Counted from the first letter of the stretch, positions 9,021 through 27,746 are shown. The stretch: 40,388 nt of DNA from Bacteroidota bacterium (GCA_021794075.1 JAJYRM010000026.1:1-40388); one strand, 5' to 3'. Program-made: numbers and translations. Notes: generated by a model not told the origin, from the letters alone.

Positions 9021-9048
9021 AGAAACGATTCCCGTGTTGAGCGTTTCC
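9021..9048. promoter_or_regulatory. Candidate TetR operator 2 (GAAACG-N14-CGTTTC)
   Basis: Inverted repeat with core arms GAAACG (9022-9027) and CGTTTC (9042-9047) separated by 14 bases, just upstream of the tetR start codon. It has the same arms and spacing as operator 1, with centres 84 bp apart. That is about eight turns of B-DNA, so both sites face the same side of the helix. Assignment to the neighbouring TetR protein is inferred from position. Confidence 0.6.
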
Positions 9049-9058
9049 GAATGATGCT

Positions 9059-9080
9059 AAAAAAAGCAGTCAAAGACTGC
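9059..9080 (-). terminator. Terminator-like hairpin in the efflux operon leader
   Basis: Read on the minus strand, a perfect 6-bp stem GCAGTC-TTT-GACTGC (9080-9066) is followed at once by seven T residues (9065-9059). It lies inside the predicted leader of the tetR-RND operon, downstream of the promoter at 9133-9161 and between the two operators. It could act as an attenuator or cut leaky transcription. An additional pair of complementary 8-mers (9095-9102 and 9034-9041) flanks it and could form a competing pairing. The function is inferred. Confidence 0.55.
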
Positions 9081-9104
9081 ATTTCAGCGAAATTCTCAAC
9101 ACAA

Positions 9105-11701: not shown

Positions 11702-11733
11702 TTAATGTCTCAATCCATTTCAGAGTTTAAGAA

Positions 11734-12522
11734 TCATATGGTCATCGCGGTGAAACCGCCGTCGACCGGGATGATCGTGCCGGTGACAAATGACGACGCC
11801 TTGTTAGATGCGAGCCAGATGAATGCTCCATTTAGTTCCTCCGCCTCGCCGTATCTCGCCATGGGCGTATGGCCGAATATCGACTTGCGCCTCTCCTCGG
11901 TAAGTATCTTTTTATTCTGTTCGGCGGGGAAAAATCCCGGCATCACTGCGTTGACGCGTATTCCGAATTGAGCCCACTCCCGCGCGAGGAAACGGGTCAT
12001 GTTATTGACGCCCGCTTTTGAGATCGCATAAGTGAACACCTTGGAGAGCGGTAACTCGGAGGAGACCGACGAGAAATTGATGACGCTTCCCTTTACCTTT
12101 GCTTCGATCATATGCTTCCCGAACACCTGGCATGCGAAGAACATTCCTTTGAGGTTTACGCTGATTATTTTCTCCCATTCTTCTTCCTGAATGTCGAGGA
12201 CCGGCGTGGTCGAGTTGACGCCCGGCGCGTTCACGAGTATGTCCACCTGCTTCCACTTCGCGACTATCGCGTCCTTTGCTTTCTCCAGATCGAGTTTGAC
12301 GCGCCCGTCCGCCTGGACCGCGATAGCCTCGCCTCCGCTGGACTCGACGCTTTTCACGCGCTGCTCAGCGGCTTCCTTACCATGATTATATATTATCGCG
12401 ATCCTCGCTCCTGCTCTCGCCAGCGATTCGGCTACGCTTCCGCCGAGCACGCCCGACCCTCCGATTACTGCCGCGACTTTGCCTTTGAGTCCGAATGTCT
12501 CTTCCACATATGAATTTGCCAT
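11734..12522 (-). CDS. SDR oxidoreductase, probable D-mannonate oxidoreductase
   Basis: Classical short-chain dehydrogenase of 262 residues. The dinucleotide motif GGSGVLGG sits at 21-28, and the catalytic Y165-x3-K169 is present in FTYAISKAG with serines at 151-155. The C-terminal region has the pattern PGFFPAEQNKKILTEERRKS and a terminal VDGGFTAMTI. As I recall it, this pattern is shared by SDR-type D-mannonate oxidoreductases (fructuronate to mannonate) and related gluconate 5-dehydrogenases. Context (kduD and kduI upstream, UxaE and ExuT elsewhere in the window) favours a uronate role. GGAG lies 8 bases before the ATG. A hairpin lies in the gap to kduD. The substrate assignment is inferred. 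Confidence 0.75.
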   Translation of the reverse strand: MANSYVEETFGLKGKVAAVIGGSGVLGGSVAESLARAGARIAIIYNHGKEAAEQRVKSVESSGGEAIAVQADGRVKLDLEKAKDAIVAKWKQVDILVNAPGVNSTTPVLDIQEEEWEKIISVNLKGMFFACQVFGKHMIEAKVKGSVINFSSVSSELPLSKVFTYAISKAGVNNMTRFLAREWAQFGIRVNAVMPGFFPAEQNKKILTEERRKSIFGHTPMARYGEAEELNGAFIWLASNKASSFVTGTIIPVDGGFTAMTI

Positions 12523-12550
12523 TATTTCACTCCATGTTGAAACATTGTGA

Positions 12551-12568
12551 GGGCCGATTGCCCGGCCC
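12551..12568. other. GC-only hairpin between kduD and the SDR gene
   Basis: GGGCCG-ATTGCC-CGGCCC, a 6-bp all-GC stem with a 6-base loop, in the 93-base gap between kduD and the downstream SDR. There is no T-run on the minus strand. It may mark RNA processing or partial termination that lowers expression of the distal genes. Confidence 0.45.
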
Positions 12569-12615
12569 GTTTAATTGACCTGAAATCATATTCACGCGCA
12601 CTACGCGCATCGCGA

Positions 12616-13377
12616 CTATCTTCCCATCCAGCCGCCGTCGACGGTGACGACGCTGCCGTTCATGTAGCTTGACGCGTCCGAGCAGAGGAAGACAACCGTT
12701 CCCATAAGGTCTTCCGGTTCTCCCCAGCGTCCTGCTGGAATCCTTTCGAGAATGCTACGCGACCTCACCGGATCTTCACGCAGCGCCTTCGTGTTCTCCG
12801 TGGAAATGTAACCCGGCGCGATCGCGTTTACGGTCACGCCTTTGGATGCCCACTCGTTGGCGAAAGCCATGGTCAGCTGCTTCACGCCGCCCTTCGATGC
12901 GGCGTATCCAGGAACGAATATTCCTCCCTGGAAGGATAGAAGCGACGCTACGAAGACAATCTTGCCATAACCTCTCGCCGCCATTTCCTTTCCGATCTCC
13001 CGGGTCAGTATGAACTGCGCCGTCAGGTTGACGTCAATCACTTTGTCCCAGTACTCATCCGGATGCTCGGACACCGGTTTTCTCATTATCGTCCCGGCGT
13101 TGTTCACCAGGATGTCGATCTTCGTGAAGTCCGATTTGACGCTGTCAATGAACGAGTAAAGCGATTCCCTGTTTGAGAAGTCGCTTGCGTACGACTTAAA
13201 CTTCCTCCCTCGGGCCATCACCTCTTTTTCCGTTTCCGAGAAATTGTTCGAAGAAGAAACGCCGATGATATCCGCACCGGACTCTGCCAGAGCTACGGCG
13301 TAAGCCCTGCCGATTCCCTGATTTGAACCTGTCACCAGCGCGATCCTGTTATCAAGTCTGAATTTATCAAGGATCAT
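12616..13377 (-). CDS. kduD: 2-deoxy-D-gluconate 3-dehydrogenase / DKII reductase KduD
   Basis: SDR enzyme that reduces 2,5-diketo-3-deoxygluconate (DKII) to 2-keto-3-deoxygluconate in breakdown of unsaturated uronates from pectin. The 253 residues match KduD along their length: TGSNQGIG (16-23), NNAGTIMRKP, VASLLSFQGGIFVPGY with catalytic S145 and Y158, K162, then NEWASKGVTVNAIAPGY, RIPAGRWGEPED and the terminal VTVDGGWMGR. The ASLLSFQGG and RIPAGRWG stretches are strong KduD hallmarks. GGAGG lies 8 bases before the ATG. It follows kduI by 43 bases and acts on the product of KduI. Confidence 0.96.
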   Translation of the reverse strand: MILDKFRLDNRIALVTGSNQGIGRAYAVALAESGADIIGVSSSNNFSETEKEVMARGRKFKSYASDFSNRESLYSFIDSVKSDFTKIDILVNNAGTIMRKPVSEHPDEYWDKVIDVNLTAQFILTREIGKEMAARGYGKIVFVASLLSFQGGIFVPGYAASKGGVKQLTMAFANEWASKGVTVNAIAPGYISTENTKALREDPVRSRSILERIPAGRWGEPEDLMGTVVFLCSDASSYMNGSVVTVDGGWMGR

Positions 13378-13420
13378 ATCAAATACCTCCGATAGTTCGC
13401 TTTGCCGGAAACGCGCGTGA

Positions 13421-14254
13421 TCATCTCAACGAAGACATCTCCACGTTGTCCATGTCTTCAAACTCCTGGTTCTCGCCGCCCATCGCCCAGATGAATGAGT
13501 AGTTCTTCGTACCTCCTCCAGAATGTATCGACCAGCTCGGCGATATCACCGCCTGCCTGTCGCGTACCACGATGTGCCGCGTCTCCGAAGGGTCACCCAT
13601 CATATGAAATACCACTGATTTCTCGTCAAGGTTGAAATAGAAATATACCTCCGTCCTGCGTTGGTGCGTATGTGACGGCATCGTGTTCCAGATGCTTCCC
13701 TCGTCGAGTTCAGTAAGCCCCATCACGAGCTGCGAGCTCTTCACGCCCTTCGGGTGAATGTATCTGTTCAGCGTTCTGGAGTTGGCCTCCGCCGCATTCC
13801 CCAACCTTGCGGAGAATACCTCACCGAACTTCATGAAGGTCGTCGGAAATGAGGCATGCGCAGGGTAACTGACAAAGTAATAGTACGCCGGCTTTGACGC
13901 GTCGTCGCTCGAAAAGACGATTTCCTTCGTGCCCAATCCAATGTAAACCGCATCCTTGTATCCGAGCGAGAACTCTCTTCCGTCCGCCTTCACCTTCCCG
14001 GAATTTCCGACATTGAATATCCCGACTTCCCTGCGTTGAGCGAAGAACTCAGCAGCCATTTCTTTTTTGGTGCTCATTAGCCGAAGAGATTCTTTGACCG
14101 GTGAAGCTCCCCCGACAATCGCACGGTCAAGGTCAAAGTAAACCATTTCAACTTTTCCCTCACGGAAAAGATTCTCCATGAGGAACGCCTTTCTTACATC
14201 ATCCGTCTTAAGTGACCGGTAACTTAAATTGTTCGGAGAATATCTTACTTCCAT
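13421..14254 (-). CDS. kduI: 5-keto-4-deoxyuronate isomerase KduI
   Basis: Cupin-fold zinc isomerase that converts 5-keto-4-deoxyuronate (DKI) to DKII, the step before KduD. The 277 residues are the standard length. The metal ligands are visible: H195 and H197 with E202 in SHTHQRRTEVYFYF, and H244 in WSIHSGGG, each one position off the E. coli numbering. Other family blocks include MEVRYSPN at the N-terminus and GGENQEFEDMD near the C-terminus. A GAAAGG lies 8 bases before the ATG. First gene of the minus-strand kduI-kduD-SDR-pdxB run. I saw no convincing promoter or operator directly upstream. Confidence 0.97.
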   Translation of the reverse strand: MEVRYSPNNLSYRSLKTDDVRKAFLMENLFREGKVEMVYFDLDRAIVGGASPVKESLRLMSTKKEMAAEFFAQRREVGIFNVGNSGKVKADGREFSLGYKDAVYIGLGTKEIVFSSDDASKPAYYYFVSYPAHASFPTTFMKFGEVFSARLGNAAEANSRTLNRYIHPKGVKSSQLVMGLTELDEGSIWNTMPSHTHQRRTEVYFYFNLDEKSVVFHMMGDPSETRHIVVRDRQAVISPSWSIHSGGGTKNYSFIWAMGGENQEFEDMDNVEMSSLR

Positions 14255-14961: not shown

Positions 14962-15369
14962 ATGCCGTTGTTTCAATGGAACCAGGAATACAGCGTGAAC
15001 GTCGGCCAACTCGACGAACAGCACAAGAAGCTTGTCGAAATGATTAATACTCTCGACAACTCCATGAAATCGGGAGACCGTATCGAGACGATAAGGGTTA
15101 TCCTGGACGAGCTGCTTGATTACACGGCCTATCATTTTGAGACTGAAGAAAGACTCCTCGTTCAGTACGGATACCCTCGGGTGGAAAATCACAGAAAGGA
15201 ACACGACGCCCTCTCCTGGAGGGTTCTCGACCTTAGGACCAGGTTTGATTCGGGAGCAGGTGTGGAGGCGAAAGAAATTCTCGATTTTCTTACGGATTGG
15301 TTAAAGAATCATATACTTTTTTCCGATAAGCAATACGGAAGCTTTCTAAACTCTAAAGGCTTGAAATAA
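14962..15369 (+). CDS. Bacteriohemerythrin 1
   Basis: Single-domain non-heme di-iron oxygen-binding protein, 135 residues, cytosolic. All usual iron ligands can be read: H21 (DEQHKKLV), H58 and E62 (YHFETEERLL), H77 and H81 (HRKEHDAL), H117 and D122 (WLKNHILFSDKQY). The N-terminal W6 and the four-helix length are typical. Roles known for the family include oxygen storage, delivery or sensing. AGGAG lies 8 bases before the ATG. A paralogue follows after 43 bases on the same strand, so the two are probably co-transcribed. Confidence 0.96.
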   Translation: MPLFQWNQEYSVNVGQLDEQHKKLVEMINTLDNSMKSGDRIETIRVILDELLDYTAYHFETEERLLVQYGYPRVENHRKEHDALSWRVLDLRTRFDSGAGVEAKEILDFLTDWLKNHILFSDKQYGSFLNSKGLK

Positions 15370-15412
15370 TTCACTTACTTAATACTGGAACATTCAACCC
15401 CGGAGAAAGTAT

Positions 15413-15820
15413 ATGTCCCTTTTCCAATGGTCTCCCGACCTGAGCGTCAATATCACAGAAATCGACCACCAGCACAAGAAACTGATCGACCTCATCAATC
15501 TTCTTCACGACTCAATGAGATTGGGAAAAGGAAGGGATGTGATAGGGAAGGTTCTCAAGGACCTCACCGACTACACCGTTTATCACTTCGGTACGGAAGA
15601 GCGCTTGTTCGCGAAGTACGGTTACGCCGAATCTGACCGCCACAAGAAAGAGCACGACGATCTTACGAAACAGGTAATGGATCTCAAGACAAGATACGAG
15701 AGTGGCCAAACGACAATAACCGTCGAAGTGATGACCTTCCTGAAAGATTGGCTCAAGAACCACATCCAGCAAAGCGACAAGAGATACAGCGCTTTTCTCA
15801 ACTCAAAAGGGGTGAACTGA
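15413..15820 (+). CDS. Bacteriohemerythrin 2 (tandem paralogue)
   Basis: Second single-domain hemerythrin, also 135 residues, with every iron ligand at the same position as in its neighbour: H21, H58, E62, H77, H81, H117, D122. The two proteins share the start (FQW), the end (FLNSKG) and most of the helical core. They differ in loops and surface helices (e.g. residues 38-50 and 96-105), so this is an older duplication and not a recent copy. GGAG lies 8 bases before the ATG. It ends just before a strong hairpin and the convergent radical SAM gene. Confidence 0.96.
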   Translation: MSLFQWSPDLSVNITEIDHQHKKLIDLINLLHDSMRLGKGRDVIGKVLKDLTDYTVYHFGTEERLFAKYGYAESDRHKKEHDDLTKQVMDLKTRYESGQTTITVEVMTFLKDWLKNHIQQSDKRYSAFLNSKGVN

Positions 15821-15891: not shown

Positions 15892-17385
15892 CTACCTTAT
15901 AGCCATCACCTGGTCTTCAAAGACTTTCCTGAAATGAAAGCCGTATATAGCGAATGTTATGGCGAGAGGAAACAACCTCGGTCGCGTGAATAGCGACCAG
16001 AAGAATAGTCGCCAATAGTACACGCGTTCTTTCGCGATGACGCCGAGGACAAGCGCGGATTTGATTAGCGCCTTCATGTCGTCAAAATTCACGCGGAACA
16101 CCTTTGCCTGCTGAGGCTTGAAATTCCTCATGAAGTTTTTAACGCGTTCGTAGTATTCGTTTGGCGAATAGATCCGTCCTATGATTTCCTTGTATCCGCT
16201 GATCAAAGTATCACGGTCCATCTTGGGCACAAAATTTATGGAAAGGTCAGTGTTGTTCCCCGAGAACGCATGCAGGAGTCTTCCCTCCGACATAAGTCTC
16301 TTGTATAACTTGGTACCACGCGGTGCATTCAGAAGCCCCACCATGGCCGTCACGATGCCCGTCTCCTGGATGAAGGAAACCAGCTTGTCAAATATCGAGG
16401 CCGGATCGACGTCAAAGCCCACGATGAAGCCTCCCTGCACTTGCATTCCGAACTCCTGAATCTTCCTGACGCTCGCCGCAAGATCCCTTCTCCTGTTCGG
16501 AATCTTCTTGCATTCCTGCAGGCTCTCTTCATTGGGCGATTCGATCCCGACAAAGACAGCGTTGAAACCGGCCTTCACCATCAGTGACATTAGTTCCTCG
16601 TCATCCGCCGAGTTCAGTGATACTTCAGTATTGAAATAGAACGGATGCCGGTGTTCGTCCATCCATTCGATAATCGCGGGGAGGATCTCTTTCTTGAGCT
16701 TATTCTTATTTCCTATAAAGTTATCGTCCACGAAGAAAACGCTCCCCTTCCAGCCATGCGCCAGAAGGCTGTCCAGTTCGGCAATAACCTGTTCCTTTCT
16801 TTTCGTCCTTGGAACCCGGCCATAAAGCACAGTTATATCGCAGAACTCGCAATCGTAGGGACAGCCACGCGAGTATTGCAAATTCATCGATGCATACTGC
16901 TTGAAGTCAATCAGCTCCCATTTTGGCGAAGGCGTTCCGGTAATATCAGCCCACTCCGTCGATCTGTAGATATGTTTCGCGGAATCATTGGCGAGGTCTT
17001 CAAGAAAAGGCTGAAGCGTGATCTCAGCCTCGTTCAGTACCAGATGATCGACATCATCGAACTCATCGTAATAGGCGGTGAACAGCGGTCCCCCGGCCAC
17101 AATCTTCTTGCCCAGCTGTCTACAACGATCTACCACAGCTCTCGCGGATTCTCTCTGAACGGTCATCGCGCTGATGAAGACGTAGTCGGCCCACCCGATA
17201 TCATCATCGTCAAGAGAACGCACGTTAAGATCGACCAGCTTCTTCTCCCATTTATCGGGCACCATTGCAGCCACGGTGAGAAGCCCGAGCGGCGGGAATG
17301 CAGCTTTCTTGGAGATGAATTTCAAAGCGTGCCGAAAACTCCAGAAAGTGTCCGGATAGCTTGGGTAGACAAAAAGAATTTTCAT
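15892..17385 (-). CDS. B12-binding radical SAM protein with DUF4070-type tail
   Basis: Cobalamin-dependent radical SAM enzyme of 497 residues, the class that performs methyl transfers or ring rearrangements on unactivated carbons. The N-terminal B12-binding Rossmann-like domain begins MKILFVYPSYPDTFWSFRHA and includes PPLGLLTVAAMVP. The radical SAM core has C175-x3-C179-x2-C182 in SRGCPYDCEFCDI, followed by FVDDNFIGN and VFVGIESPNEESL. The C-terminal part (about 330-480) resembles DUF4070, found in hopanoid methylase HpnP-like proteins, and carries a hydrophobic stretch near the end. AAAGGG lies 7 bases before the ATG at 17385, better than the upstream frame extension. No hopanoid genes are nearby, so the substrate is open. 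It is divergent from the TetR cassette and may share its control. Confidence 0.85.
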   Translation of the reverse strand: MKILFVYPSYPDTFWSFRHALKFISKKAAFPPLGLLTVAAMVPDKWEKKLVDLNVRSLDDDDIGWADYVFISAMTVQRESARAVVDRCRQLGKKIVAGGPLFTAYYDEFDDVDHLVLNEAEITLQPFLEDLANDSAKHIYRSTEWADITGTPSPKWELIDFKQYASMNLQYSRGCPYDCEFCDITVLYGRVPRTKRKEQVIAELDSLLAHGWKGSVFFVDDNFIGNKNKLKKEILPAIIEWMDEHRHPFYFNTEVSLNSADDEELMSLMVKAGFNAVFVGIESPNEESLQECKKIPNRRRDLAASVRKIQEFGMQVQGGFIVGFDVDPASIFDKLVSFIQETGIVTAMVGLLNAPRGTKLYKRLMSEGRLLHAFSGNNTDLSINFVPKMDRDTLISGYKEIIGRIYSPNEYYERVKNFMRNFKPQQAKVFRVNFDDMKALIKSALVLGVIAKERVYYWRLFFWSLFTRPRLFPLAITFAIYGFHFRKVFEDQVMAIR

Positions 17386-17409
17386 CAACAGCCCTTTGTT
17401 ATGTGACCT

Positions 17410-17438
17410 AAAGTAAGGAATCGCCAAAGACCGGTCAA
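17410..17438 (-). promoter_or_regulatory. Probable promoter of the radical SAM gene, with TetR-site core
   Basis: On the minus strand, TTGACC (17438-17433), a 17-base spacer and TACTTT (17415-17410), about 25 bases before the ATG at 17385. The -35 box overlaps the palindrome GACCGGTC (17429-17436), identical to the central 8 bases of the perfect operator at 17664-17683. Control by the same TetR is possible but rests on 8 bases. Confidence 0.45.
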
Positions 17439-17629: not shown

Positions 17630-17658
17630 TTGACAGCTACGCAGGAGTACACTATCTT
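17630..17658 (+). promoter_or_regulatory. Sigma-70-type promoter of the TetR/ABC cassette
   Basis: TTGACA (17630-17635), a 17-base spacer and TATCTT (17653-17658). The predicted start near 17665 falls within the 20-bp palindrome, so a bound repressor would block initiation directly. It lies 42 bases before the tetR ATG. Confidence 0.75.
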
Positions 17659-17663
17659 ATTCC

Positions 17664-17683
17664 TAAACCGACCGGTCGGTTTA
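17664..17683. promoter_or_regulatory. 20-bp perfect palindrome, operator for the cassette's TetR
   Basis: TAAACCGACCGGTCGGTTTA is perfectly self-complementary over all 20 bases. It begins 5 bases after the -10 box and ends 16 bases before the tetR start codon. Length, symmetry and position are those of a TetR-family operator. The assignment to the adjacent regulator is inferred. Confidence 0.82.
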
Positions 17684-17699
17684 TTACAGTAAGGAGCTT

Positions 17700-18308
17700 A
17701 TGCCAAGAAAAGGAAACATACAGAACATTGCCAAAAGAAAAGAGCAGATACTCAAAGCTGCCGTTACGGCCTTTGCCCGGAGCGGATTGAAAGACACGAG
17801 CATGAACGACATCGTCCGTGAATCGGGTTTGAGCAAGGGAGCTATTTACTGGTATTACAAGAGTAAGGACGAGATAATCGCGGAGCTTCTAAATGAATTC
17901 TTCGACCCTGAGGATATCAAGAAGGTTGAGATCATGCTTTCGACCGGCACCCCCCTGCAGAAGATAGAGAAGCTGGTCGAATATATGATCGATGAAATGA
18001 ACCAGATGCGGCGGTTCAGACTGGTCATCCAGGAGCTCTTCGTCCTGGCCTTCCGCGACGAGAAGATCAGAAGGATGACCAAAACAAATTTTCAGGCCTC
18101 AGTCGCTCTGTTGCAAGGTATAATCGAGGAAGGGATTAGGAGTAAACAGTTCCGCCGAGTCGATCCGTATCAAGTCACGCTTGCGATATTTGAAATAATC
18201 GAAAGCACCGCCCTATTCTGGTCGCTCGATCTGATTGACGTAGATTTTGACAAACAGCTCCGTGGAGGAATCGATTTGATATTGAACTCGATCAAGGTGA
18301 AGAGATGA
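17700..18308 (+). CDS. TetR-family regulator heading the LolA/FtsX cassette
   Basis: DNA-binding repressor of 202 residues. The N-terminal domain is canonical: ILKAAVTAFARSGLKDTSM followed by the helix-turn-helix IVRESGLSKGAIYWYYKSKDE. The helical C-terminal part (FRLVIQELFVLAFRDEKIRR, FEIIESTALFWSLD) resembles TetR regulators of lipid or fatty-acid related operons, but that similarity is only impressionistic. AAGGAG lies just 3 bases before the ATG, a short spacing. Its stop overlaps the next start by four bases (ATGA), so it is translationally coupled to the LolA-like gene. It is the likely ligand for the 20-bp palindrome over the promoter, giving autoregulation of the whole cassette. Confidence 0.94.
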   Translation: MPRKGNIQNIAKRKEQILKAAVTAFARSGLKDTSMNDIVRESGLSKGAIYWYYKSKDEIIAELLNEFFDPEDIKKVEIMLSTGTPLQKIEKLVEYMIDEMNQMRRFRLVIQELFVLAFRDEKIRRMTKTNFQASVALLQGIIEEGIRSKQFRRVDPYQVTLAIFEIIESTALFWSLDLIDVDFDKQLRGGIDLILNSIKVKR

Positions 18309-19171
18309 AAAGAACCACACGCCAGATGTCAGCTTCTCAAGACAATTTGACCACGTCCGCGGAACATTCGACGGACCGACCCTCAATCTCCAAAAACAGG
18401 CGAGGCCGCAGAACTTTCGCTCGACCGATCCTATTTGCCGTCCTTAATCTGTTAACGATATACTCCTTGATACCTGCGGTATGCCAGGCGCAGGATCCGA
18501 GGCAGATTATCCAGAGGGCCGAAGATGCCATAAAGGGAAAGACATCGAGCTATTCGGTCATGGAAATGATAATCCGGACCCCAGACTACACCAGAACCAT
18601 GACAATGGAGAGCTGGACGAGCGGCACTTCAAAAGCCCTCGTCAAAATTTTATCGCCTGTCAGAGAGGCGGGCAACCGCACTTTGAAACTGGGAAATGAT
18701 ATCTGGATGTACCTTAGAAATACTGAGACCACTATCCGCATACCTCCATCTATGATGCTTCAATCCTGGAACGGCTCCGATTATACCTACGACGACATGG
18801 TTCGCGAGGAGACTCTCACAAAAGATTACGATATCACACTCGTGGGGAGCGAAAAGATAGCGGGCGTCGACTGCTGGAAACTGCGGCTCATTCCGAAACC
18901 GAACGCACCAGTCGTATGGGGAAAGCTTCTCTATTGGGTTCGAAAGGCGGACGACCTTCCGGCGCAGGTAGAATACTTCGACGAAAGAGGGAAACTCATG
19001 CGAACGATGGTGATGAGCGATTTCAAGAAGATGGGCGGGCGGATGATACCGACACTCTGGACGATGTACAATTCCGATAAGACTCACTCCACCGAGATCA
19101 AGATGGAAAGGGCCTCTTTCGATAAGAGAATACCGGGCAGCATTTTCTCACTTAGAGAGCTGGAGAGATAG
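18305..19171 (+). CDS. LolA-like outer-membrane lipoprotein-sorting protein (COG2834 type)
   Basis: Predicted periplasmic carrier of lipoproteins or other lipids, with the half-barrel LolA/LppX-like fold. After the hydrophobic export segment (about residues 41-58, cleavage near AVCQAQ) comes IIQRAEDAIKGKTSSYSVMEMII. The hallmark pattern follows: ALVKILSPVREAGNRTLKLGNDIWMYL, IRIPPSMMLQSWNGSDYTYDDM and GVDCWKLRLIPKP, ending FSLRELER. About 40 polar, basic residues precede the hydrophobic segment, which is unusual for a signal peptide. An internal start is possible, but the ATGA overlap with tetR supports this one. Six bases separate it from the first permease gene. Likely shuttles the substrate from the ABC permeases to the barrel encoded downstream. 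Confidence 0.88.
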   Translation: MKRTTRQMSASQDNLTTSAEHSTDRPSISKNRRGRRTFARPILFAVLNLLTIYSLIPAVCQAQDPRQIIQRAEDAIKGKTSSYSVMEMIIRTPDYTRTMTMESWTSGTSKALVKILSPVREAGNRTLKLGNDIWMYLRNTETTIRIPPSMMLQSWNGSDYTYDDMVREETLTKDYDITLVGSEKIAGVDCWKLRLIPKPNAPVVWGKLLYWVRKADDLPAQVEYFDERGKLMRTMVMSDFKKMGGRMIPTLWTMYNSDKTHSTEIKMERASFDKRIPGSIFSLRELER

Positions 19172-19176
19172 CTGCG

Positions 19177-20403
19177 ATGTTGTTTGTGAAGATTGCCTGG
19201 CGTAGTCTCTGGCGAAACCGGAGGCGTTCGATTCTGGCGATATCCGCGATCGCATTCGCCGTGATGTTCGCGGTGGTAAGGCTCGGATTCGATGATGGGA
19301 CCTTCGCCCTGTCATTACGGACGGCGGTCCGCTCCTCCACCGGGTATATTCAAATCCAAAAGATCGGCTACAATGAGAATCCGACTCTTCAGAAAAGTTT
19401 CACGGTAACCCGGCAGATTCACTCGGACATAAAAGCCGATCCCCTTATCGAAGGAAGTTCACCGAGAATTCAGGCCGGTGCCCTTCTAAGTTTCAGGAAT
19501 CATTCGCTCGGTGCGATGATAACCGGTGTCGAGCCGAAGAGTGAAAACATGGTTACCGACTTTCCGCGGAAGGTCATAGACGGAAGGTTCCTCGAAAACG
19601 ACAGCACTCCCGACATAGTCGTTGGATACAGGCTCCTCAGAAACCTGGGAGCGAAGGTCGGAGACTCTCTGGTCGTACTCGGAGCGGGTTACGATGGTGT
19701 GCTCGGAAACATGTTCGTCCGCGTTGTGGGGACGTTCCGAACCGGCTCCGGTGAGTTCGATCGGACAGGCGCATTCATGAGTGTGCCGGTACTGCAGAAC
19801 TTCCTCGATATGGGAACCAGGGTGAACGCGGTCGCGCTTTCCGTCGGTAATCCCAATGACGTCGCAAGAATCGTCAAGAGGCTCGACCCTCTTCTCAAAC
19901 CGGAAGGACTTGTCGCTGTACCTTGGCAGGAACTTCTACCGCAGCTGAGCCAGACAATGAGTTTCAGTCACGCCGCTCATATACTGTTTCTAAGCATCCT
20001 ATTTGCAGTCGTCGGGTTCGGAATATTGAATGCCCTCCTGATGTCGGTCACGGAGCGCTTCAGGGAGTTTGGCGTCATGCTTTCCATCGGTATGTCAAAC
20101 TTCAGGCTCGCCCTGACCACGGCGATAGAGATGGTCTTCATGGTCGTGATCGGTTTCGTGATTGGAAACATTTCCGGAGCCGCGATTAATTATTATTTCA
20201 TGAGACATCCGATCGTGCTCGGCGGGAGCATGGGTTCGTTCGTCCATGAGTGGGGATTTCAGCCGATCGTCCCATCTTCCCTATCTCCCGGCATATTTCT
20301 GACCGCCGGTACTATAGTCCTGGCGATATCGGTCGTAGCTGCAATCTATCCCCTCTGGCGCGTCTCACGCCTGGAGCCGCTGAAAGGTATAAGGTACACC
20401 TAA
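19177..20403 (+). CDS. ABC permease A1, FtsX/MacB (LolC/E) type
   Basis: Inner-membrane ABC permease of the lipoprotein-export/MacB class, 408 residues. One transmembrane helix follows the amphipathic start (IAWRSLWRNRRRSILAISAI). Next comes a periplasmic MacB-PCD-like domain (about 40-260), then the C-terminal FtsX domain with three helices (ILFLSILFAVVGFGILNALL; MVFMVVIGFVIGN; FLTAGTIVLAISVVAAIYPL). The ending RVSRLEPLKGIRYT is a family signature. It is clearly paralogous to A2 (21856-23100): both share TAVRxSTGYxQIQxxGY, SPRIQ, HPIVLGGS and the same C-terminus. It probably pairs with B1 to form a heterodimer, like LolC with LolE. Six bases follow the LolA-like gene. Confidence 0.93.
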   Translation: MLFVKIAWRSLWRNRRRSILAISAIAFAVMFAVVRLGFDDGTFALSLRTAVRSSTGYIQIQKIGYNENPTLQKSFTVTRQIHSDIKADPLIEGSSPRIQAGALLSFRNHSLGAMITGVEPKSENMVTDFPRKVIDGRFLENDSTPDIVVGYRLLRNLGAKVGDSLVVLGAGYDGVLGNMFVRVVGTFRTGSGEFDRTGAFMSVPVLQNFLDMGTRVNAVALSVGNPNDVARIVKRLDPLLKPEGLVAVPWQELLPQLSQTMSFSHAAHILFLSILFAVVGFGILNALLMSVTERFREFGVMLSIGMSNFRLALTTAIEMVFMVVIGFVIGNISGAAINYYFMRHPIVLGGSMGSFVHEWGFQPIVPSSLSPGIFLTAGTIVLAISVVAAIYPLWRVSRLEPLKGIRYT

Positions 20404-20445
20404 AATGAAATTCGAAATTCTAAGCTCTAAATACTAAAACTGATC
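20404..20445 (+). repeat. A1-B1 spacer, repeated at the A2-B2 junction
   Basis: A 42-base AT-rich spacer containing ATTCTAA and TCTAAAT. Aligned without gaps to the 42-base spacer at 23101-23142 it matches at 27 positions (64%). Neither contains a visible Shine-Dalgarno site before the B gene. Confidence 0.6.
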
Positions 20446-21678
20446 ATGTTAGCTCGGATTGCCTGGCGCAACATACTTCGAAACAAAAGAAGATCGCTCA
20501 TCCTTATCATGTCCATCGTGGTAGGAGTTGTCGCGCTCGTGCTGACGGAAGGTTTCGCGGTCGGAATGCTTCAACAAATGCTGACAAACCAGATTGGAAC
20601 GGATGCGGGCTATATTCAAATACACAAAAGAGGGTATCAATCGGATCCGACTCTTGAAAATTCAATGACCGATCCCGGACCCGTGCACGAGGTTCTGGAG
20701 AAAGTGGGCGGAGTACTTAACTACTCCGAACGCCTGCGAGTCTACGGACTCATTAGCAGCGCGTACAACTCTTACGGCGTTTCTATCGTCGGGATTGTGC
20801 CGAACGAGGAAAGTAGGATCACCACGATTTCAAGGTATATCACAAAAGGGACTTATCTCTCCGGCAAACCAGGACAGATACTCATCGGTGCATCGATGGC
20901 GGAGAAGCTTAGAGTCGGGCTTGGCGACAAAGTCGTAATCATGGCTTCGCAAAGAGACGGAAGCATCGGTTCGGAAGCGTGCCGGATCGAAGGGATATTC
21001 GAGACGCTCAATTCGGGATTCGATCAATCTCATGTCTACATCCCTATTCAGACAGCCAGACAAATGCTCAACGCCGGCGGGCTTGTGTCGGAGTTCGTCA
21101 TAAATCCCAAAGATCCGCATGAAATGAATGAGGTAGTGTCACAGATCCGTCGCAGCATTGAAGCCCTCCCGGGTGCGTCGAACCGGTACGAAGTCCTTAC
21201 ATACGAGCAAATGCTGCCGCTCCTCGTCGCACAACTGGAGTTGTACAAGCAGGCTCTTTATCTCATAGCGGTCCTCATCGCCTTTGCGCTGATATTCGGT
21301 ATAATCGACACAATGCTGATGTCCGTCATGGAAAGGACGCAGGAGTTCGGAATTTCGATGGCCGTCGGCATGTCGCACGGCAGAATATTCAAAATGGTTA
21401 TGACGGAGGCTCTGTTCCTCGCCATAATAGGGACGGCAACTGGACTCGCGGCATCTTACATAATCACTTCACAACTTTCTCATTCGGGCTGGGATCTCTC
21501 CACGTTCTCCGCGAGCCTGAAGTCACTTGGTATTGGGAGCGTCATTTATCCGGTGGTCCAAACATCTTCTGTTATCCAGACCGTGCTCATCATCCCGATC
21601 GCAACTCTCCTCGGCGCAGTCTACCCCGCTTTGAAGGCGGTCAGGCTTCAGCCCGTCGAGGCAATAAGAGCAAGCTGA
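20446..21678 (+). CDS. ABC permease B1, FtsX/MacB (LolC/E) type
   Basis: Second permease of the first pair, 410 residues, with the same layout: N-terminal helix (SLILIMSIVVGVVALVLTEG), periplasmic domain to about residue 255, then three C-terminal helices and the ending AVRLQPVEAIRAS. It belongs to a different subtype from the A proteins. Both B proteins share IAWRNILRNKRRS, the block QQMLTNQIGTDAGYIQIH, MLPLLV and SHSGW. The start lacks a ribosome site (AAAACTGATC before ATG), so translation may depend on the upstream gene. After its stop lies a 177-base gap with low-complexity TGGAAT-type sequence before the second pair. Confidence 0.93.
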   Translation: MLARIAWRNILRNKRRSLILIMSIVVGVVALVLTEGFAVGMLQQMLTNQIGTDAGYIQIHKRGYQSDPTLENSMTDPGPVHEVLEKVGGVLNYSERLRVYGLISSAYNSYGVSIVGIVPNEESRITTISRYITKGTYLSGKPGQILIGASMAEKLRVGLGDKVVIMASQRDGSIGSEACRIEGIFETLNSGFDQSHVYIPIQTARQMLNAGGLVSEFVINPKDPHEMNEVVSQIRRSIEALPGASNRYEVLTYEQMLPLLVAQLELYKQALYLIAVLIAFALIFGIIDTMLMSVMERTQEFGISMAVGMSHGRIFKMVMTEALFLAIIGTATGLAASYIITSQLSHSGWDLSTFSASLKSLGIGSVIYPVVQTSSVIQTVLIIPIATLLGAVYPALKAVRLQPVEAIRAS

Positions 21679-21855
21679 GAAATATGGGAACGATGGAATT
21701 ATGGAATTGTGGATTGATGGATTATTGTCTGAATGGCCCTTCAGGGATTGTTAGTTCACTGGCCTTTGGAGAGGTTCGGAGAAACGAAAGGAGATCACTC
21801 AAGCAGATGCGTAAATTTCTTAATCCAGTAATTCCGGTCACTTTCAGGTAATACG
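21679..21855 (+). repeat. Spacer between permease pairs with TGGAATT-type low-complexity repeat
   Basis: The first part (about 21691-21727) is a degenerate direct repeat of ATGGAATT / TGGATTGA units. A similar stretch lies after B2 at about 24369-24398, as expected if the permease pair and its trailing spacer were duplicated together. The end supplies AGG seven bases before the A2 ATG. No gene or promoter is evident. Confidence 0.5.
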
Positions 21856-23100
21856 ATGCTGCTGATCCGGCTTGCGTGGAGGAGTCTATGGCGAAACTGG
21901 CGGAGGACGCTCATAGCGATGTCTGCCGTAATTTTCGCGATAACATTGTCCATCATACAACGAGGTATTCAGTACGGTACATATTCTGAGACCATAAGGA
22001 CGGCGGTTCGCCTTTCGACAGGTTATTTGCAGATTCAGAGAGAGGGTTATAACAAAAGTCCAACGCTTCAGAAAAGCTTCCTCGAAACAGCCGCGATCCG
22101 GAAAGCGCTGGAAAGCTCACCCTACATAGACGGGAGTTCTCCGAGGATACAGTCGGACGCGCTTCTGAGCTTTCACGACCAATCACTCGGTGTCCTGATA
22201 ATGGGAATACGGCCTAACACCGAGAGTGGTGTTACCGATTTTAGTAAGAAGATAAGAAAAGGCCGTTTTCTCTCGCCGGATTCAGCCATAGGCGCGGAAC
22301 CTGTCGCGGAGATAGTCGTCGGCGACAAGCTTTTGAAAAACCTCGGGGCTCAAGTCGGCGACTCTGTAGTCGTCCTTGCACAGGGTTTTGACGGGATACT
22401 CGGTAACATGTTCGCGAGGATCGTAGGAACCTTCGCAACCGGGTCGAACCAGTTCGATCGAATGGGAGTCTTCATGAACATCAATGAGCTCCAGAATTTT
22501 CTCAATATGGACGACAGAATAAACGCAATAGCAGTCTCGGTCAGGGACCCGAATGAGTTGAACTCGGTCGTACTCGGCCTGAATCGTGTTCTCAAACCCG
22601 AAGGGCTTGTCGCTCTTCCCTGGCAGGAGATGCTACCACAGCTTAAGCAGATGATAGAACTTGACGATTCGAGCGGCGTGCTCTACATAGTAATACTTCT
22701 CTTTGTGGTAGGGTTCGGTATTCTGAACACGGTTCTCATGTCAATTACGGAACGCTTCAGGGAATACGGCGTCATGCTTGCGCTTGGCATGTCTGAGAAC
22801 AAACTCGTCGCGGCTGTCGCACTTGAGATCTTTTTCATGCTGGTCATCGGGTTTATTGCAGGCAACGGAATTGGAATAGCGGTCAATTCGTACCTGGTAA
22901 GCCATCCGATTGTCCTTGGCGGCAGCCTGGCGCAGCTCTACCAGGAATATGGGTTTGCGCCCACGCTTAAGTCTTCGCTGTCCTTCAAAGTATTTCTCGA
23001 TTCGAGCCTGACAATCCTTGGCATCTCCATCGTATCGGCGGTATATCCACTTTGGAAGGTGCTGAGGCTGGAACCGCTGAAAGGCATCAGGTACACCTGA
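21856..23100 (+). CDS. ABC permease A2, FtsX/MacB (LolC/E) type (paralogue of A1)
   Basis: 414-residue permease with the A-type sequence: start LIRLAWRSLWRNWRRTLIAMS, periplasmic SPRIQSDALLSFHDQSLGV, HPIVLGGS, and the C-terminus LRLEPLKGIRYT, identical to A1 over its last ten residues. A1 and A2 align throughout with only small gaps, so they come from duplication of the A-B pair. Differences spread along the periplasmic domain suggest the two pairs are old and may handle different cargo or form a larger complex. CAGG lies seven bases before the ATG. The single ATPase gene downstream would have to serve both pairs. Confidence 0.93.
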   Translation: MLLIRLAWRSLWRNWRRTLIAMSAVIFAITLSIIQRGIQYGTYSETIRTAVRLSTGYLQIQREGYNKSPTLQKSFLETAAIRKALESSPYIDGSSPRIQSDALLSFHDQSLGVLIMGIRPNTESGVTDFSKKIRKGRFLSPDSAIGAEPVAEIVVGDKLLKNLGAQVGDSVVVLAQGFDGILGNMFARIVGTFATGSNQFDRMGVFMNINELQNFLNMDDRINAIAVSVRDPNELNSVVLGLNRVLKPEGLVALPWQEMLPQLKQMIELDDSSGVLYIVILLFVVGFGILNTVLMSITERFREYGVMLALGMSENKLVAAVALEIFFMLVIGFIAGNGIGIAVNSYLVSHPIVLGGSLAQLYQEYGFAPTLKSSLSFKVFLDSSLTILGISIVSAVYPLWKVLRLEPLKGIRYT

Positions 23101-23142
23101 GATGAACTTCTATATTCTAAAATCTAAATCTTCAACTACTTT
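23101..23142 (+). repeat. A2-B2 spacer, counterpart of the A1-B1 spacer
   Basis: 42 bases, the same length as the spacer at 20404-20445 and 64% identical to it without gaps (shared ATTCTAA and TCTAAAT). No Shine-Dalgarno site precedes the B2 ATG. Confidence 0.6.
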
Positions 23143-24357
23143 ATGTTAAGTCTCATCGCCTGGCGCAACATACTTCGAAACAAACGCAGATCGTTTATCC
23201 TGATCCTGTCGATAATGGTAGGTGTGATTGCGTTGGTCCTGACGGATGCCTTCTCGATAGGGATGATGCAGCAGATGCTGACGAACCAAATCGGGACCGA
23301 CGCGGGATACATTCAGATCCATTCAAAAGGGTATCACGACGATCCTACCCTGAAAAATTCGATTGAGAACACCGCGCCTGTCCGCGCCGCCCTTTCTCAC
23401 GACAGCACCACTGTCAGCTTCTCGGAGCGATTAAGAGTATTCGGCCTCATAAGCAGCGCTTCCAATTCGTCCGGTGTGTCAATAGTGGGAATAGTCCCTC
23501 GCGAGGAAGAGCGCATTACGACTGTTCACAAGTATATAGTCAAAGGGACCTACTTGACCGACAAGCCTGACGACATCATCATCAGCACTGCGACAGCGGA
23601 GAAACTAAAGGTGGGAATCGGTGACAAGGTCGTCATCATGGCTTCACGAATCGGAGGGAGCGTAGGGGCGGAGGCGTGTCGCGTGGTCGGATTGTTTGAG
23701 ACTTTCGATTCGGGCTTCGATCAGACCCATGTGTATATTCCACTCGAGACTGCGCGGAAGATGCTCGGCGCGGCAGGAAGGGTCTCCGAATTTGTCGTCA
23801 ATCCCATCGACCCGAAGCAAACAGATTCAATCTCGCGGCAGCTGAGGTCGCGGCTTCCGTCCGACATGGAAGTGCTGACATATAAACAGATGCTTCCACT
23901 CCTTGTTATGCAGATACAGTTATATGATCAAATGATATACATATTCTACGCGATCATAGCCATTGCCCTGATATTCGGAATAATAAATACAATGCTAATG
24001 GCAGTCATGGAGCGGACACATGAATTTGGCGTTGACATGGCAATTGGAATGTCGAACAAGCGCATCGTGACGATGATTTTAACAGAGGCCTTCTACCTGG
24101 GAGCCGTCGGCACCGTAGTGGGACTCGCGATTTCCCTCGCGATAGATATTCCGCTGTCGCATAGCGGCTGGAACCTTGCCGCCTTTTCTCAAAGTCTGAA
24201 ATCTGTCGGCATCGGCACTAAAATCTACCCTGTCGTCGGCGCTTCTACTGTCTTGAATGCGGCGATAATAATACCTATTGCCACGGTGATCGGCGCCATT
24301 TATCCGGCCATGAGAGCAATAAAGCTTCAACCGGTGGAAGCGATAAGAGCCAGCTGA
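23143..24357 (+). CDS. ABC permease B2, FtsX/MacB (LolC/E) type (paralogue of B1)
   Basis: 404-residue B-type permease, closely similar to B1: IAWRNILRNKRRSFILILS, the identical block QQMLTNQIGTDAGYIQIH, SERLRVFGLISSASNS, FDSGFDQTHVYIPLETAR, the three C-terminal helices and the ending AIKLQPVEAIRAS. The N-terminal helix and the first periplasmic block are the best conserved parts between B1 and B2, which suggests they contact a shared partner such as the ATPase or the LolA-like carrier. No ribosome site is visible before the ATG. It is followed by 183 bases before the ATPase gene. Confidence 0.93.
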   Translation: MLSLIAWRNILRNKRRSFILILSIMVGVIALVLTDAFSIGMMQQMLTNQIGTDAGYIQIHSKGYHDDPTLKNSIENTAPVRAALSHDSTTVSFSERLRVFGLISSASNSSGVSIVGIVPREEERITTVHKYIVKGTYLTDKPDDIIISTATAEKLKVGIGDKVVIMASRIGGSVGAEACRVVGLFETFDSGFDQTHVYIPLETARKMLGAAGRVSEFVVNPIDPKQTDSISRQLRSRLPSDMEVLTYKQMLPLLVMQIQLYDQMIYIFYAIIAIALIFGIINTMLMAVMERTHEFGVDMAIGMSNKRIVTMILTEAFYLGAVGTVVGLAISLAIDIPLSHSGWNLAAFSQSLKSVGIGTKIYPVVGASTVLNAAIIIPIATVIGAIYPAMRAIKLQPVEAIRAS

Positions 24358-24540
24358 AGGGAAAGGGGATTATGGAAAGTTGGAATAATGGAATAAAACT
24401 TTTAGCCGGCTGAATAAGGAACTAAGAAGTTTAATGTAATAAAGTGTATTTGGAGCGGCATGAGAAACCGATGGTCTATCATCCAGCAGAAATAGGCAGA
24501 CCGGCTTGAGGAAATTAGAAAGTCACGGAGAACACAAATT
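24358..24540 (+). repeat. Spacer before the ATPase gene with TGGAAT-type repeat
   Basis: Starts with a degenerate TGGAA/TGGAATAA direct repeat (about 24369-24398) like the one after B1. The rest is AT-rich with no gene or clear promoter. GGAG lies 10 bases before the ATPase ATG. Confidence 0.45.
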
Positions 24541-25242
24541 ATGAATACAAATGCATCTGAAATTGTTCGGGTCGACAACGTACGGAAAGTTTACAGCGAC
24601 AACGGCGTGCCGGTGGACGCACTTCGAGGAATTAACATGACGGTTCTGCCCGGCGATTTCTCTGTCATCGCGGGACCATCGGGCTCCGGGAAAACAACAT
24701 TGCTTAATCTTATCGGCACGCTCGACAAGCCGACCGAAGGAGCGGTATACATCGATGGAGAAGACGTAGCTTCAAAAACACGCCGGCAGCTTGCCGACAT
24801 CCGCCTCAGAAAGATAGGTTTTGTTTTTCAAGCATATAATCTCAATCCGGTCCTCAGCGCGCTTGAGAATGTCGAGTTTACCATGATGCTCAGAGGAATA
24901 GACGCCGCGGAGAGAAAACGGAAGTCCCTTGCCCTTCTTGAAGAGCTTGGCATCGGCGAGCTGGCAAATAAACGTCCCAATGAAATGAGCGGCGGGCAGC
25001 AGCAACGTGTGGCCATCGCACGCGCGATATCAAACGATCCGAGACTTGTCCTGGCCGATGAGCCGACCGCAAACCTCGATTCAGATACAGCGGTAAAGCT
25101 TCTCGAACTGATGGAGAAGCTCAACCATGAAGACAGAATAACCTTCGTCTTTTCATCGCATGATCCTCAAGTTATCGGGCGAGCACATAGGCTGTTAATA
25201 CTCAAGGATGGCCAGATCGTCGACGACAAGGTTAACGTCTGA
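24541..25242 (+). CDS. ABC transporter ATPase, LolD/MacB type
   Basis: Cytosolic nucleotide-binding subunit that powers the FtsX-type permeases, 233 residues. All motifs are intact: Walker A GPSGSGKT (45-52), Q-loop Q97 (VFQAYNLNP), signature SGGQQQ (150-155), Walker B LVLADEP with E174, D-loop NLDS and switch H207 (SSHDP). The FQAYNL and LLNLIGTLDKPTEG blocks are typical of the LolD/MacB subfamily. It is the only ATPase in the cassette, so it must serve both permease pairs or a mixed complex. Its end overlaps the possible upstream starts of the barrel gene. Confidence 0.96.
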   Translation: MNTNASEIVRVDNVRKVYSDNGVPVDALRGINMTVLPGDFSVIAGPSGSGKTTLLNLIGTLDKPTEGAVYIDGEDVASKTRRQLADIRLRKIGFVFQAYNLNPVLSALENVEFTMMLRGIDAAERKRKSLALLEELGIGELANKRPNEMSGGQQQRVAIARAISNDPRLVLADEPTANLDSDTAVKLLELMEKLNHEDRITFVFSSHDPQVIGRAHRLLILKDGQIVDDKVNV

Positions 25243-25279
25243 ACGATCGATGGACGTAGGAACCATGGGGAACGATAGC

Positions 25280-26479
25280 ATGCACAGATTGAAGCTCGCG
25301 CGCCAACCGGTGTTGAGCCTAATCGTGGCCACTCTATTTCTGGTTCTCCCAAGCATTCCGGCATTCGGGCAAACATCGCTTCTCCCGGGGACCGAGCTCA
25401 ACTTCCAGGGATACGTTATGGAGATGCCGGTATATGAGAATATACACCCTACGCTGGCTGAATTGACCGGTGTATCCCCTTCAGAATTTTCCGACCTGAT
25501 AAGATTGCGGCTCCGACCGACGCTTCACATCGGCGACAATACGAAGATAGGCCTGGCCTACGAAGTTGACGGGCTTTATTATTCTCAGAATGTCTCGTTC
25601 GGACTTGCCTCGACAACTCCGCTTCGACAGGTCATCGGTTTACGCTGGCAGCCAGTTGACGTGAAACATGCGACGGTATCAGATTACATCGACCGGCTCT
25701 ATATAGATCAGGAATTTTCTTTCGGAACTCTCGTCATAGGCAGGCAGAGAATAAGCTGGGGAACCGGAAGGGTGTGGAACCCAACGGATATATTCAACCC
25801 GATCAACCCTGCCGACTTCGGAAAAATCGAGAAGGACGGCGCCGACGCCATATCAATGAAGTTCTTTCTCGGCCAGTTGACTGACCTCCAGATTGTTTAT
25901 AACTCTGAGTACCATTTTAAATCATCTAACTACGCGGCCAGGTTTAGGACGAATATATTAGGTTATGATTTCGCGGTGCTCGGGGGATCGCTTGACAGAG
26001 AGCCGATCGCGGGAGGAGACTTCGCGGGGAATGTCTGGACCGCCGGGATACGAGGAGAAGCGCTGGTCTCGCGCGATCCGGCTAAGTCAGGTGGGTATTA
26101 TGTGAGGTGGATACTCGGTATGGATTATCAATTCACAGACAGGCTTTACGGGCTGTTCGAATATTATCACAACGGCCAGGGAACGCTCGACAGGTCGAAA
26201 TACGATTTTGCAGGCGTGCTGGAAGGGCGGATACTAAATGTCGCCAAGGATTATCTCGCGCTGAGCGGCTCATATCAGGCGACTTCTCTCATCACAGTGA
26301 CGTTGGCATCGATCTCCAACTTCAGCGACGGAAGCGGTTACCTCGCTGGGACGATCAACTATTCTGCCAGCGACAATGCGTCGATCGCGTTGGGATCCCT
26401 ATACACTTTCGGCAGGACACTCACTGAATACTGGTACTACCCCCAGGCATACTACCTGAAGTTGGAGACATACTTCTGA
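25280..26479 (+). CDS. Outer-membrane beta-barrel, DUF1302-like
   Basis: A predicted outer-membrane barrel of about 399 residues. It has a signal peptide (RQPVLSLIVATLFLVLPSIP, cleavage near AFGQ), then alternating hydrophobic/aromatic strands and a terminal aromatic (KLETYF). The motif WGTGRVWNPTDIFNP, preceded by GRQRIS, is the mark of DUF1302-like or alginate-export-like barrels. The ATG at 25280 has GGGGA 8 bases upstream. Earlier in-frame ATGs (25208, 25250, 25265) are possible, but the earliest overlaps the ATPase gene and would add a polar tail before the signal peptide. As last gene of the TetR cassette it could receive or release the cargo at the outer membrane. That role is inferred from context. 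Confidence 0.82.
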   Translation: MHRLKLARQPVLSLIVATLFLVLPSIPAFGQTSLLPGTELNFQGYVMEMPVYENIHPTLAELTGVSPSEFSDLIRLRLRPTLHIGDNTKIGLAYEVDGLYYSQNVSFGLASTTPLRQVIGLRWQPVDVKHATVSDYIDRLYIDQEFSFGTLVIGRQRISWGTGRVWNPTDIFNPINPADFGKIEKDGADAISMKFFLGQLTDLQIVYNSEYHFKSSNYAARFRTNILGYDFAVLGGSLDREPIAGGDFAGNVWTAGIRGEALVSRDPAKSGGYYVRWILGMDYQFTDRLYGLFEYYHNGQGTLDRSKYDFAGVLEGRILNVAKDYLALSGSYQATSLITVTLASISNFSDGSGYLAGTINYSASDNASIALGSLYTFGRTLTEYWYYPQAYYLKLETYF

Positions 26480-26502: not shown

Positions 26503-27495
26503 TCAGATCCGCATGCGCCAGACACTCCCGTTACTGAGCTGCACGTATAAATAACCATTCGCTTCGTCGAAAGCGGATAACGACGCGCTCGGTAGGTTCC
26601 CAGTGATGTTCTTCCAGCTAACGCCGTAATTGGTGGTCGTGAATACGCCATTATCGTCTACCAATACGACGTTCGAATCGACGGCAGCCACGCCAACTCC
26701 CGACTGACCGCTTCCGGGTACTCCGTTGCTGATGTATATCCAGCTCACGCCATTATTTTCTGAAAGAAATAACTGCGACCCTACCGCTCCGGCGTAGACA
26801 TTTGATCCAACGGCAGCAAGCGAAGTAACGTACGGAGCGCCCGAGTAATAAGGGCTCATGTTGACGAGGCCGCTGTCGTTCGCGATCCAGCTTTCGCCGT
26901 TGTTCGATGAAAGATACATACCGGACTGCGTACCGGCGATGATGTTTGGCCCTGACGTGACAAGGCTGAAGACTGTCGTGCCGTAGCTAATGCCCTGATT
27001 TGCCGCCGTCCATGTGGTGCCGTTGTCTGTAGATTTAAAAATTCCATTGGAAGATGTCCCTGCGAATATGACCGAGTCGACAGCCTTGATGCAGTAGACG
27101 TTTTGATAGACTCCGCTGAAGGCAGTTGCGAGCCCCGAATCGCATTCGGTCCATGTCGCACCACCATCGGTTGATTTCATGATACCGGTCTGGTTGTTAT
27201 AGTCACCTATGAAAAGATTGCCATTCACGGCTGCGACTGTATAATCGCCCGATGCAAGGCTCGAGTCCGTCACGACCCAGTTACTACCGTTATCTGTCGA
27301 ACGAAAGACTCCATAGTTTCCCGCAGCGTAAAGATCGGATCCGCTTGCGACGATGTTGTAAAATCCCGTCAGACCGTTAACCTGCGTCCAACTCGCTGAA
27401 CCGGATGGAGGACCGACTATGCTACTCTGTTTGGTACAGCCGGCGAAGATTAGAGCAGAAGCGATTGCGGACAATGCGATGATACGTCTATTCAT
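26503..27495 (-). CDS. Lipoprotein with Asp-box (BNR-like) beta-propeller repeats
   Basis: Lipid-anchored surface or periplasmic protein with no enzyme active site that I can recognise. The N-terminus MNRRIIALSAIASALIFAGC is a lipoprotein signal with lipobox. The rest carries six Asp-box-type repeats: STDNGSNW, STDGGATW, STDNGTTW, SSNNGESW, SENNGVSW and TTNYGVSW, each about 40-50 residues apart. These are seen in sialidase-like and photosynthesis-stability-like (Ycf48) propellers. The ATG at 27495 has AGGAAA 5 bases upstream and starts the signal peptide exactly. It is convergent with the barrel gene, 23 bases apart, with no clear terminator. The 250 bases upstream hold no further gene. Confidence 0.82.
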   Translation of the reverse strand: MNRRIIALSAIASALIFAGCTKQSSIVGPPSGSASWTQVNGLTGFYNIVASGSDLYAAGNYGVFRSTDNGSNWVVTDSSLASGDYTVAAVNGNLFIGDYNNQTGIMKSTDGGATWTECDSGLATAFSGVYQNVYCIKAVDSVIFAGTSSNGIFKSTDNGTTWTAANQGISYGTTVFSLVTSGPNIIAGTQSGMYLSSNNGESWIANDSGLVNMSPYYSGAPYVTSLAAVGSNVYAGAVGSQLFLSENNGVSWIYISNGVPGSGQSGVGVAAVDSNVVLVDDNGVFTTTNYGVSWKNITGNLPSASLSAFDEANGYLYVQLSNGSVWRMRI

Positions 27496-27746
27496 ACAAT
27501 TTCCTGACAACATTAATGAAAATTCTACGATGGCAGAAGGACTGCGATAGTGTGAGAGTTCTGACGATTCGAGGTATATGAAGTGAAAAAAGCCGGCAAT
27601 ACAAATCTGTCAGCAACACTGCCCGCATCTGCTTTACTTCAGAAATTATCCTAGCTTCTGTTAAATTCCAATCCAATCTGAAGAGGATGACGCAAGGTCG
27701 CCCCGAGATATGAGCCTATTGAGTAGGAATCGATCAACACTCGGAG

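Follow-up and report, generated by a model that had tools for sequence, protein, structure and literature searches.

A TetR-led ABC cassette of Bacteroidota with a LolA-like carrier and a predicted outer-membrane barrel: a putative trans-envelope exporter

Exporters of hydrophobic compounds of the RND/DUF1329/DUF1302 type are exemplified by AmeABCD of Castellaniella defragrans, which consists of an HAE3 pump, a DUF1329 carrier, a DUF1302 barrel and a COG4447 propeller and confers monoterpene tolerance (PMC6394551). In the Lol pathway (LolCDE–LolA–LolB), the LolC Hook is the element that recruits LolA. A further member of the LolA superfamily, LolA3 of P. gingivalis, binds LolB weakly and lacks the conserved arginine of LolA (PMC13103446), and deletion of lolA3 in F. 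johnsoniae gives no phenotype (PMC11885536). A putative export system encoded by the seven-gene BBJ23–29 cluster, reported from Borrelia only, combines a MacB-like ABC transporter, a LolA-like carrier and an outer-membrane barrel (PMC13078400).

The cassette described here is best read as an inducible ABC-driven counterpart of AmeABCD and related RND/DUF1329/DUF1302 exporters of hydrophobes. As in AmeABCD, an inducible set joins an inner-membrane engine to a LolA-superfamily carrier and a barrel, here remotely related to DUF1302, but this engine is of the ABC type, with a separate ATPase and A and B permeases, rather than an RND pump, and no propeller gene is conserved with it. Its two MacB-fold permease types, LolD-like ATPase and LolA-fold carrier resemble the Lol pathway; unlike canonical Lol, it has a dedicated barrel, TetR or MarR control and a carrier of family PF17131 instead of PF03548, lacks the LolC Hook stretch and coexists with a housekeeping Lol locus. 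Compared with MacAB–TolC, neither a MacA-type adaptor nor TolC is found among the eight genes, and the ATPase is encoded separately and is not fused to a permease. The Borrelia cluster differs in its Omp85-type barrel, its TPR proteins and its single homodimeric permease (PMC13078400), and YbbAP–TesA in that its partner is a hydrolase, not a carrier, and that the complex as described has no barrel (PMC12646458). No earlier description of the ABC form was found in the literature searched, which covers few subscription journals.

The window, i.e. the whole stretch of DNA analysed, comprises 40 388 nucleotides from a Bacteroidota bacterium (GCA_021794075.1, JAJYRM010000026.1). Eight intact plus-strand genes lie consecutively within 17700–26479, in the order proposed by the first-pass annotation. 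The first encodes a TetR-family regulator (17700–18308; TetR_N, PF00440, E = 3.5e-15; dN/dS of 0.07 to the nearest relative) and overlaps the carrier gene (18305–19171) by 4 bp. These are followed by permeases A1, B1, A2 and B2, an ATPase and a predicted outer-membrane β-barrel. The cassette consists of ordinary protein families that are joined in an unusual and strongly conserved way.

A predicted promoter on the plus strand (17630–17658; −35 TTGACA, 17-nt spacer, −10 TATCTT) is the best σ70-like match of the region (10/12). It abuts the predicted TetR operator TAAACCGACCGGTCGGTTTA, a perfect, strandless 20 bp palindrome (17664–17683) just 3′ of the −10 box, after which the TetR gene starts at 17700. 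When the window was shuffled 100 times, the 18 bp core of the palindrome was never matched. A palindrome is present at the equivalent position in all ten genus loci compared, eight of which carry the ACCGACCGGTCGGT type of the window (some with one mismatch) and two of which carry variant sequences, and similar −35 and −10 elements are visible 5′ of tetR in the genus relatives. When the operator pattern was searched in 13 genus genomes, matches were confined to copies of the cassette; the TetR therefore appears to serve the cassette alone, and its regulon is ruled out as a clue to the cargo. One genus relative (genome G012, contig C142) contains a second, partial copy of the cassette with its own perfect operator, representing either a duplication or a mixture of strains. 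More widely, 45 of the 80 named loci, and 62 of 116 overall, have a TetR gene no more than 700 bp 5′ of the carrier gene, often overlapping it; about ten further loci have a MarR-type regulator instead (two of these checked with Pfam). The conserved operator supports the earlier proposal of a repressor-controlled promoter, and the cassette is likely to be repressed by its own TetR.

The carrier, currently annotated merely as an `outer membrane lipoprotein-sorting protein', matches PF17131 (E = 2e-56, 190.9 bits) and not PF03548, which sets it apart from the canonical Lol carrier, and is the sole PF17131 protein found in the genome. It is about 27% identical to P. gingivalis LolA3. The predicted model (pLDDT 78.8) is closest to the DUF1329 structure 4z48 (Z = 24.5, r.m.s.d. 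of 2.7 over 225 residues), followed at a similar level by P. gingivalis LolA3 (9tp6; Z = 24.1), compared with Z scores of at most 12.9 for true LolA and at most 14.4 for LolA and LolB proteins overall. By its predicted fold, the protein is a LolA-superfamily (DUF1329-like) carrier of the kind present in AmeABCD-type sets.

Each of the four permeases, A1 (19177–20403), B1 (20446–21678), A2 (21856–23100) and B2 (23143–24357), all on the plus strand, scores above the cutoffs of both MacB_PCD and FtsX, which together with the LolD/MacB-type ATPase assigns the system to the type VII ABC transporters. Within the window A1 and A2 are 56% identical and B1 and B2 64%, compared with 27–34% between A and B. 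In the tree, the A and B permeases form separate clades and are ancient sister families of paralogues; A1/A2 and B1/B2 are each sister groups that originate at the base of the genus, and one pair has been lost in some species. The doubling goes back to one tandem duplication of an A–B pair at the base of the genus. An assembly artefact is rejected as its source, as six loci including that of the window contain two divergent pairs under purifying selection (dN/dS of 0.09, 0.16, 0.07 and 0.11 for A1, B1, A2 and B2, respectively). The doubled permeases emphasized in the first-pass annotation are therefore real, but they are a derived trait of the genus rather than of the cassette in general, since most relatives carry a single A–B pair. 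Independent doublings are seen elsewhere, as A–B–ATPase–A–B in one Bacteroidales bacterium and as A–A–B in two others. In some Proteobacteria the two permease halves are fused into a single chain, which supports their pairing. The cassette permeases match the lolCE model TIGR02212 over nearly its full length with scores of 119 (A1), 132 (B1), 105 (A2) and 120 (B2) bits, below its cutoff of 362 bits; the housekeeping pair of the same genome, at 300 and 269 bits, is also under this cutoff but far closer to it. Aligned with LolC and LolE of E. coli, the A and B permeases show a gap of seven residues at the LolC Hook and therefore lack this stretch.

The ATPase (24541–25242, plus strand; ABC_tran, E = 2.8e-34) has its best matches among the LolD, DevA and MacB models (221 bits to the LolD model TIGR02211) and contains complete Walker A (GPSGSGKT), signature (MSGGQQQR) and Walker B (LVLADEPT) motifs. 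The barrel gene (25265–26479, plus strand) has an uncertain start at 25208, 25265 or 25280. The first of these is probably over-extended, as a signal peptide judged by eye suggests a start near 25265 or 25280, in which case an overlap between the ATPase and barrel genes is not required. A dN/dS value for the barrel was discarded as unreliable, because the start that was used shifts the reading frame. The barrel model (pLDDT 83.7, with residues 1–23 disordered) has the predicted OprD/AlgE fold, with Z scores of 24.0 to OccK9 and 22.5 to AlgE. It is read as an 18-stranded barrel from the predicted strand list by strand parity; by the same parity, the third extracellular loop would hold the most conserved segment, GRQRISWGTGRVWNPTDIFNP. 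The description of the barrel as DUF1302-like holds only at the level of remote homology: profile alignment with hhalign gave E = 1.1e-6 and a probability of 91% (at most 2% for the OmpF, FadL and LamB controls), and no Pfam family is matched, PF06980 (DUF1302) included. A related RND-linked barrel does exceed the PF06980 cutoff. A comparison with PDB sequences returned irrelevant weak matches only, and a PHROGs search returned none.

The carrier and barrel are consistently linked to the permeases. In a barrel-led search of 100 related genomes, strong barrel matches with sufficient flanking sequence are adjoined by the carrier, permeases and ATPase in an unchanged order in every case but one, a genome in which the carrier–A–B–ATPase set is 117 kb from the barrel. 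A carrier-led search, with one genome per species, gave at least 574 relatives. Among the best 80 of these, the 51 loci with 6 kb or more of downstream sequence all contain the permease or permeases, the ATPase and the barrel, in the order carrier–A–B–ATPase–barrel in 42. These two sets of loci partly overlap, and the 80 loci are the nearest of many, so that the linked fraction may fall at greater distance. Rare linkage, which had been named as grounds for abandoning the proposal, is thus not what the carrier-selected loci show. Judged from record titles, the set is carried by Bacteroidota, Ignavibacteria, Rhodothermota, Calditrichota, Zixibacteria, Gemmatimonadota, Acidobacteriota, Spirochaetota, Desulfobacterales, Betaproteobacteria (Roseateles) and Lentisphaerota, and on shorter contigs by Chromatiales and WOR-1. 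It spans about ten phyla, mostly as environmental genomes, with near-fixed gene order. Within the genus a strong barrel match is absent from three of 13 genomes, which indicates that the cassette is accessory there.

Just 5′ of the cassette are two tandem bacteriohemerythrin genes (14962–15820), relatives of which recur near the cassette in several genus genomes, and a divergent minus-strand gene for a B12-binding radical SAM protein with a DUF4070 domain (15892–17427), which is kept there in five genus genomes. The latter has no close named family and shows weak similarity to HpnJ and HpnR, far below their cutoffs; as squalene-hopene cyclase has no match in the genome either, a hopanoid cargo was rejected. 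Convergent with the barrel gene, a minus-strand gene (26503–27513) encodes a BNR-repeat β-propeller with a lipoprotein-like signal. The propeller-related AmeC is part of AmeABCD (PMC6394551), but no propeller family is found among the conserved neighbours of the cassette and the BNR protein was rejected as an AmeC counterpart. Further away are a second TetR-led export operon on the minus strand (4064–9082; TetR, an HlyD-type adaptor and an AcrB-type RND pump) and, after it, a TonB-dependent receptor with a CarboxypepD_reg domain (1488–3884). Two regions (10541–14254 and 36577–39666) encode pectin/uronate catabolism, including KduI, a KduD-like protein, a mannonate-type oxidoreductase, a family 28 glycosidase with a Por secretion tail and an MFS transporter. 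On another contig of the same genome (C122, 1423–6968), a further TetR-led set was recognized by eye; its other members are two FtsX permeases, an ATPase, a probable membrane-fusion protein and a lipocalin-like protein.

The parallel with RND/DUF1329/DUF1302 sets, originally called loose, stands and is closer than that, as the carriers belong to one family and the barrels are remotely homologous. In relatives, the same carrier family adjoins either an MMPL/RND pump and a related barrel, also within the same class, or a single-permease ABC transporter. The engine is of the MMPL type in Prevotella nigrescens (MMPL, carrier, DUF1302) and Haliovirga abyssi (TetR, MMPL, carrier), and a single-permease ABC transporter in Aliiroseovarius crassostreae (ATPase, one permease, carrier). 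The carrier tree sorts by engine: the A–B, single-permease and barrel-less types each correspond to one change, and the RND type forms one branch (97/96) that encloses the unlabelled P. gingivalis LolA3, being counted as two changes because the LolA3 row is unlabelled. LolA3 (PMC13103446) shares the carrier family with the cassette but falls in the RND-linked branch. Its sister is a Prevotella carrier (L247, 5965–6744) whose gene is flanked by those of an MMPL pump and a DUF1302 protein, so that LolA3 probably works with an MMPL/RND pump and a DUF1302 barrel.

We consider it reasonably likely that the locus encodes a trans-envelope exporter that is inducible and powered by ATP, and whose substrate is a lipid or a small hydrophobic or amphiphilic molecule. 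TetR bound to the palindrome at the transcription start would shut off the whole operon, tetR included, until released by a ligand, probably the cargo or a relative of it. Each A–B pair would heterodimerize in LolCE/MacB-like fashion and bind the single ATPase in two copies. The cavity of the LolA-like carrier would receive the acyl or other hydrophobic part of the cargo and, after crossing the periplasm, the carrier would hand it to the 18-stranded barrel, which would release it to the outer membrane or through it. A common ATPase, carrier and barrel would serve both A–B pairs, whose cargo ranges may differ. We infer the stoichiometry of this complex, the direction of flow, the hand-over to the barrel and the nature of the cargo. 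By analogy, the cargo is most likely to be a hydrophobic small molecule or lipid, because of AmeABCD, the TetR/MarR control, the absence of a conserved lipoprotein neighbour and the missing Hook. Counting against this reading, the cassette is accessory in the genus, OprD/AlgE-type barrels usually pass hydrophilic substrates and no biosynthetic gene conserved across lineages was seen adjoining the cassette.

The last of these would be expected if the cassette instead served in defence, expelling external toxic hydrophobics (solvents, bile-like agents, antibiotics or antimicrobial lipids) with TetR as the poison sensor and without export of an own lipid. This overlaps with the exporter proposed above, sharing its mechanism and differing in purpose. 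TetR or MarR control is typical of efflux systems, the distribution within the genus is accessory and AmeABCD confers tolerance to monoterpenes (PMC6394551), yet retention in about ten phyla, mainly in environmental genomes and with near-fixed gene order, argues against a purely defensive role, which we regard as less likely than not.

Improbable, in our assessment, is a dedicated lipoprotein route, in which particular lipoproteins would be extracted by the ABC transporter, taken over by the LolA-like protein and finally inserted into, or flipped across, the outer membrane by the barrel. The LolA fold of the carrier and the nearly full-length lolCE matches of the permeases are what it would predict, but the permeases lack the LolA-recruiting Hook stretch, the carrier belongs to the PF17131/LolA3 family, in which P. 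gingivalis LolA3 shows weak LolB binding and no counterpart of the conserved LolA arginine (PMC13103446) and deletion of F. johnsoniae lolA3 gives no phenotype (PMC11885536), and housekeeping Lol is encoded at a separate locus of the genome. Furthermore, the neighbour comparison showed no conserved lipoprotein gene adjoining the cassette, and the RND versions of the carrier–barrel pair point to small hydrophobic cargo. A lipid or amphiphile is thus the more likely cargo; of the `lipid or lipoprotein' originally suggested, the second half is disfavoured by this family-level evidence.

A variant housekeeping Lol or MacAB system, unusual only through its neighbours, is largely refuted and hardly credible: every single family does fall within the Lol/MacB superfamily, but lolC/E–lolD (contig C224) and a PF03548 LolA (contig C73) are encoded apart from the cassette in the same genome, neither MacA nor TolC is among the eight genes and the carrier and barrel are linked in 51 of 51 loci. 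The separate contigs also exclude that the cassette is the genome's only housekeeping Lol system, the second outcome that would have overturned the first-pass annotation, and its proposal of a regulated trans-envelope set that is dedicated and separate from the housekeeping Lol system is supported.

Returning to the exporter of a lipid or hydrophobic compound, a broader and more tentative suggestion, to which we give slightly less than even chances, is that the cassette represents a class of type VII ABC system, widespread and as yet undescribed, in which a regulated engine, a LolA-like shuttle and an OprD/AlgE-type barrel export a lipid or amphiphile across both membranes. It would then be a sister class to the RND/DUF1329/DUF1302 exporters that has the outer half in common with them but is driven by an ABC engine, the engines having been exchanged in evolution. 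The movement of lipids and hydrophobes to or through the Gram-negative outer membrane is still poorly known. If correct, this assignment would add a regulated class to the type VII ABC systems, would imply that ABC and RND engines can each drive one and the same shuttle-plus-barrel half and would provide a testable role for P. gingivalis LolA3.
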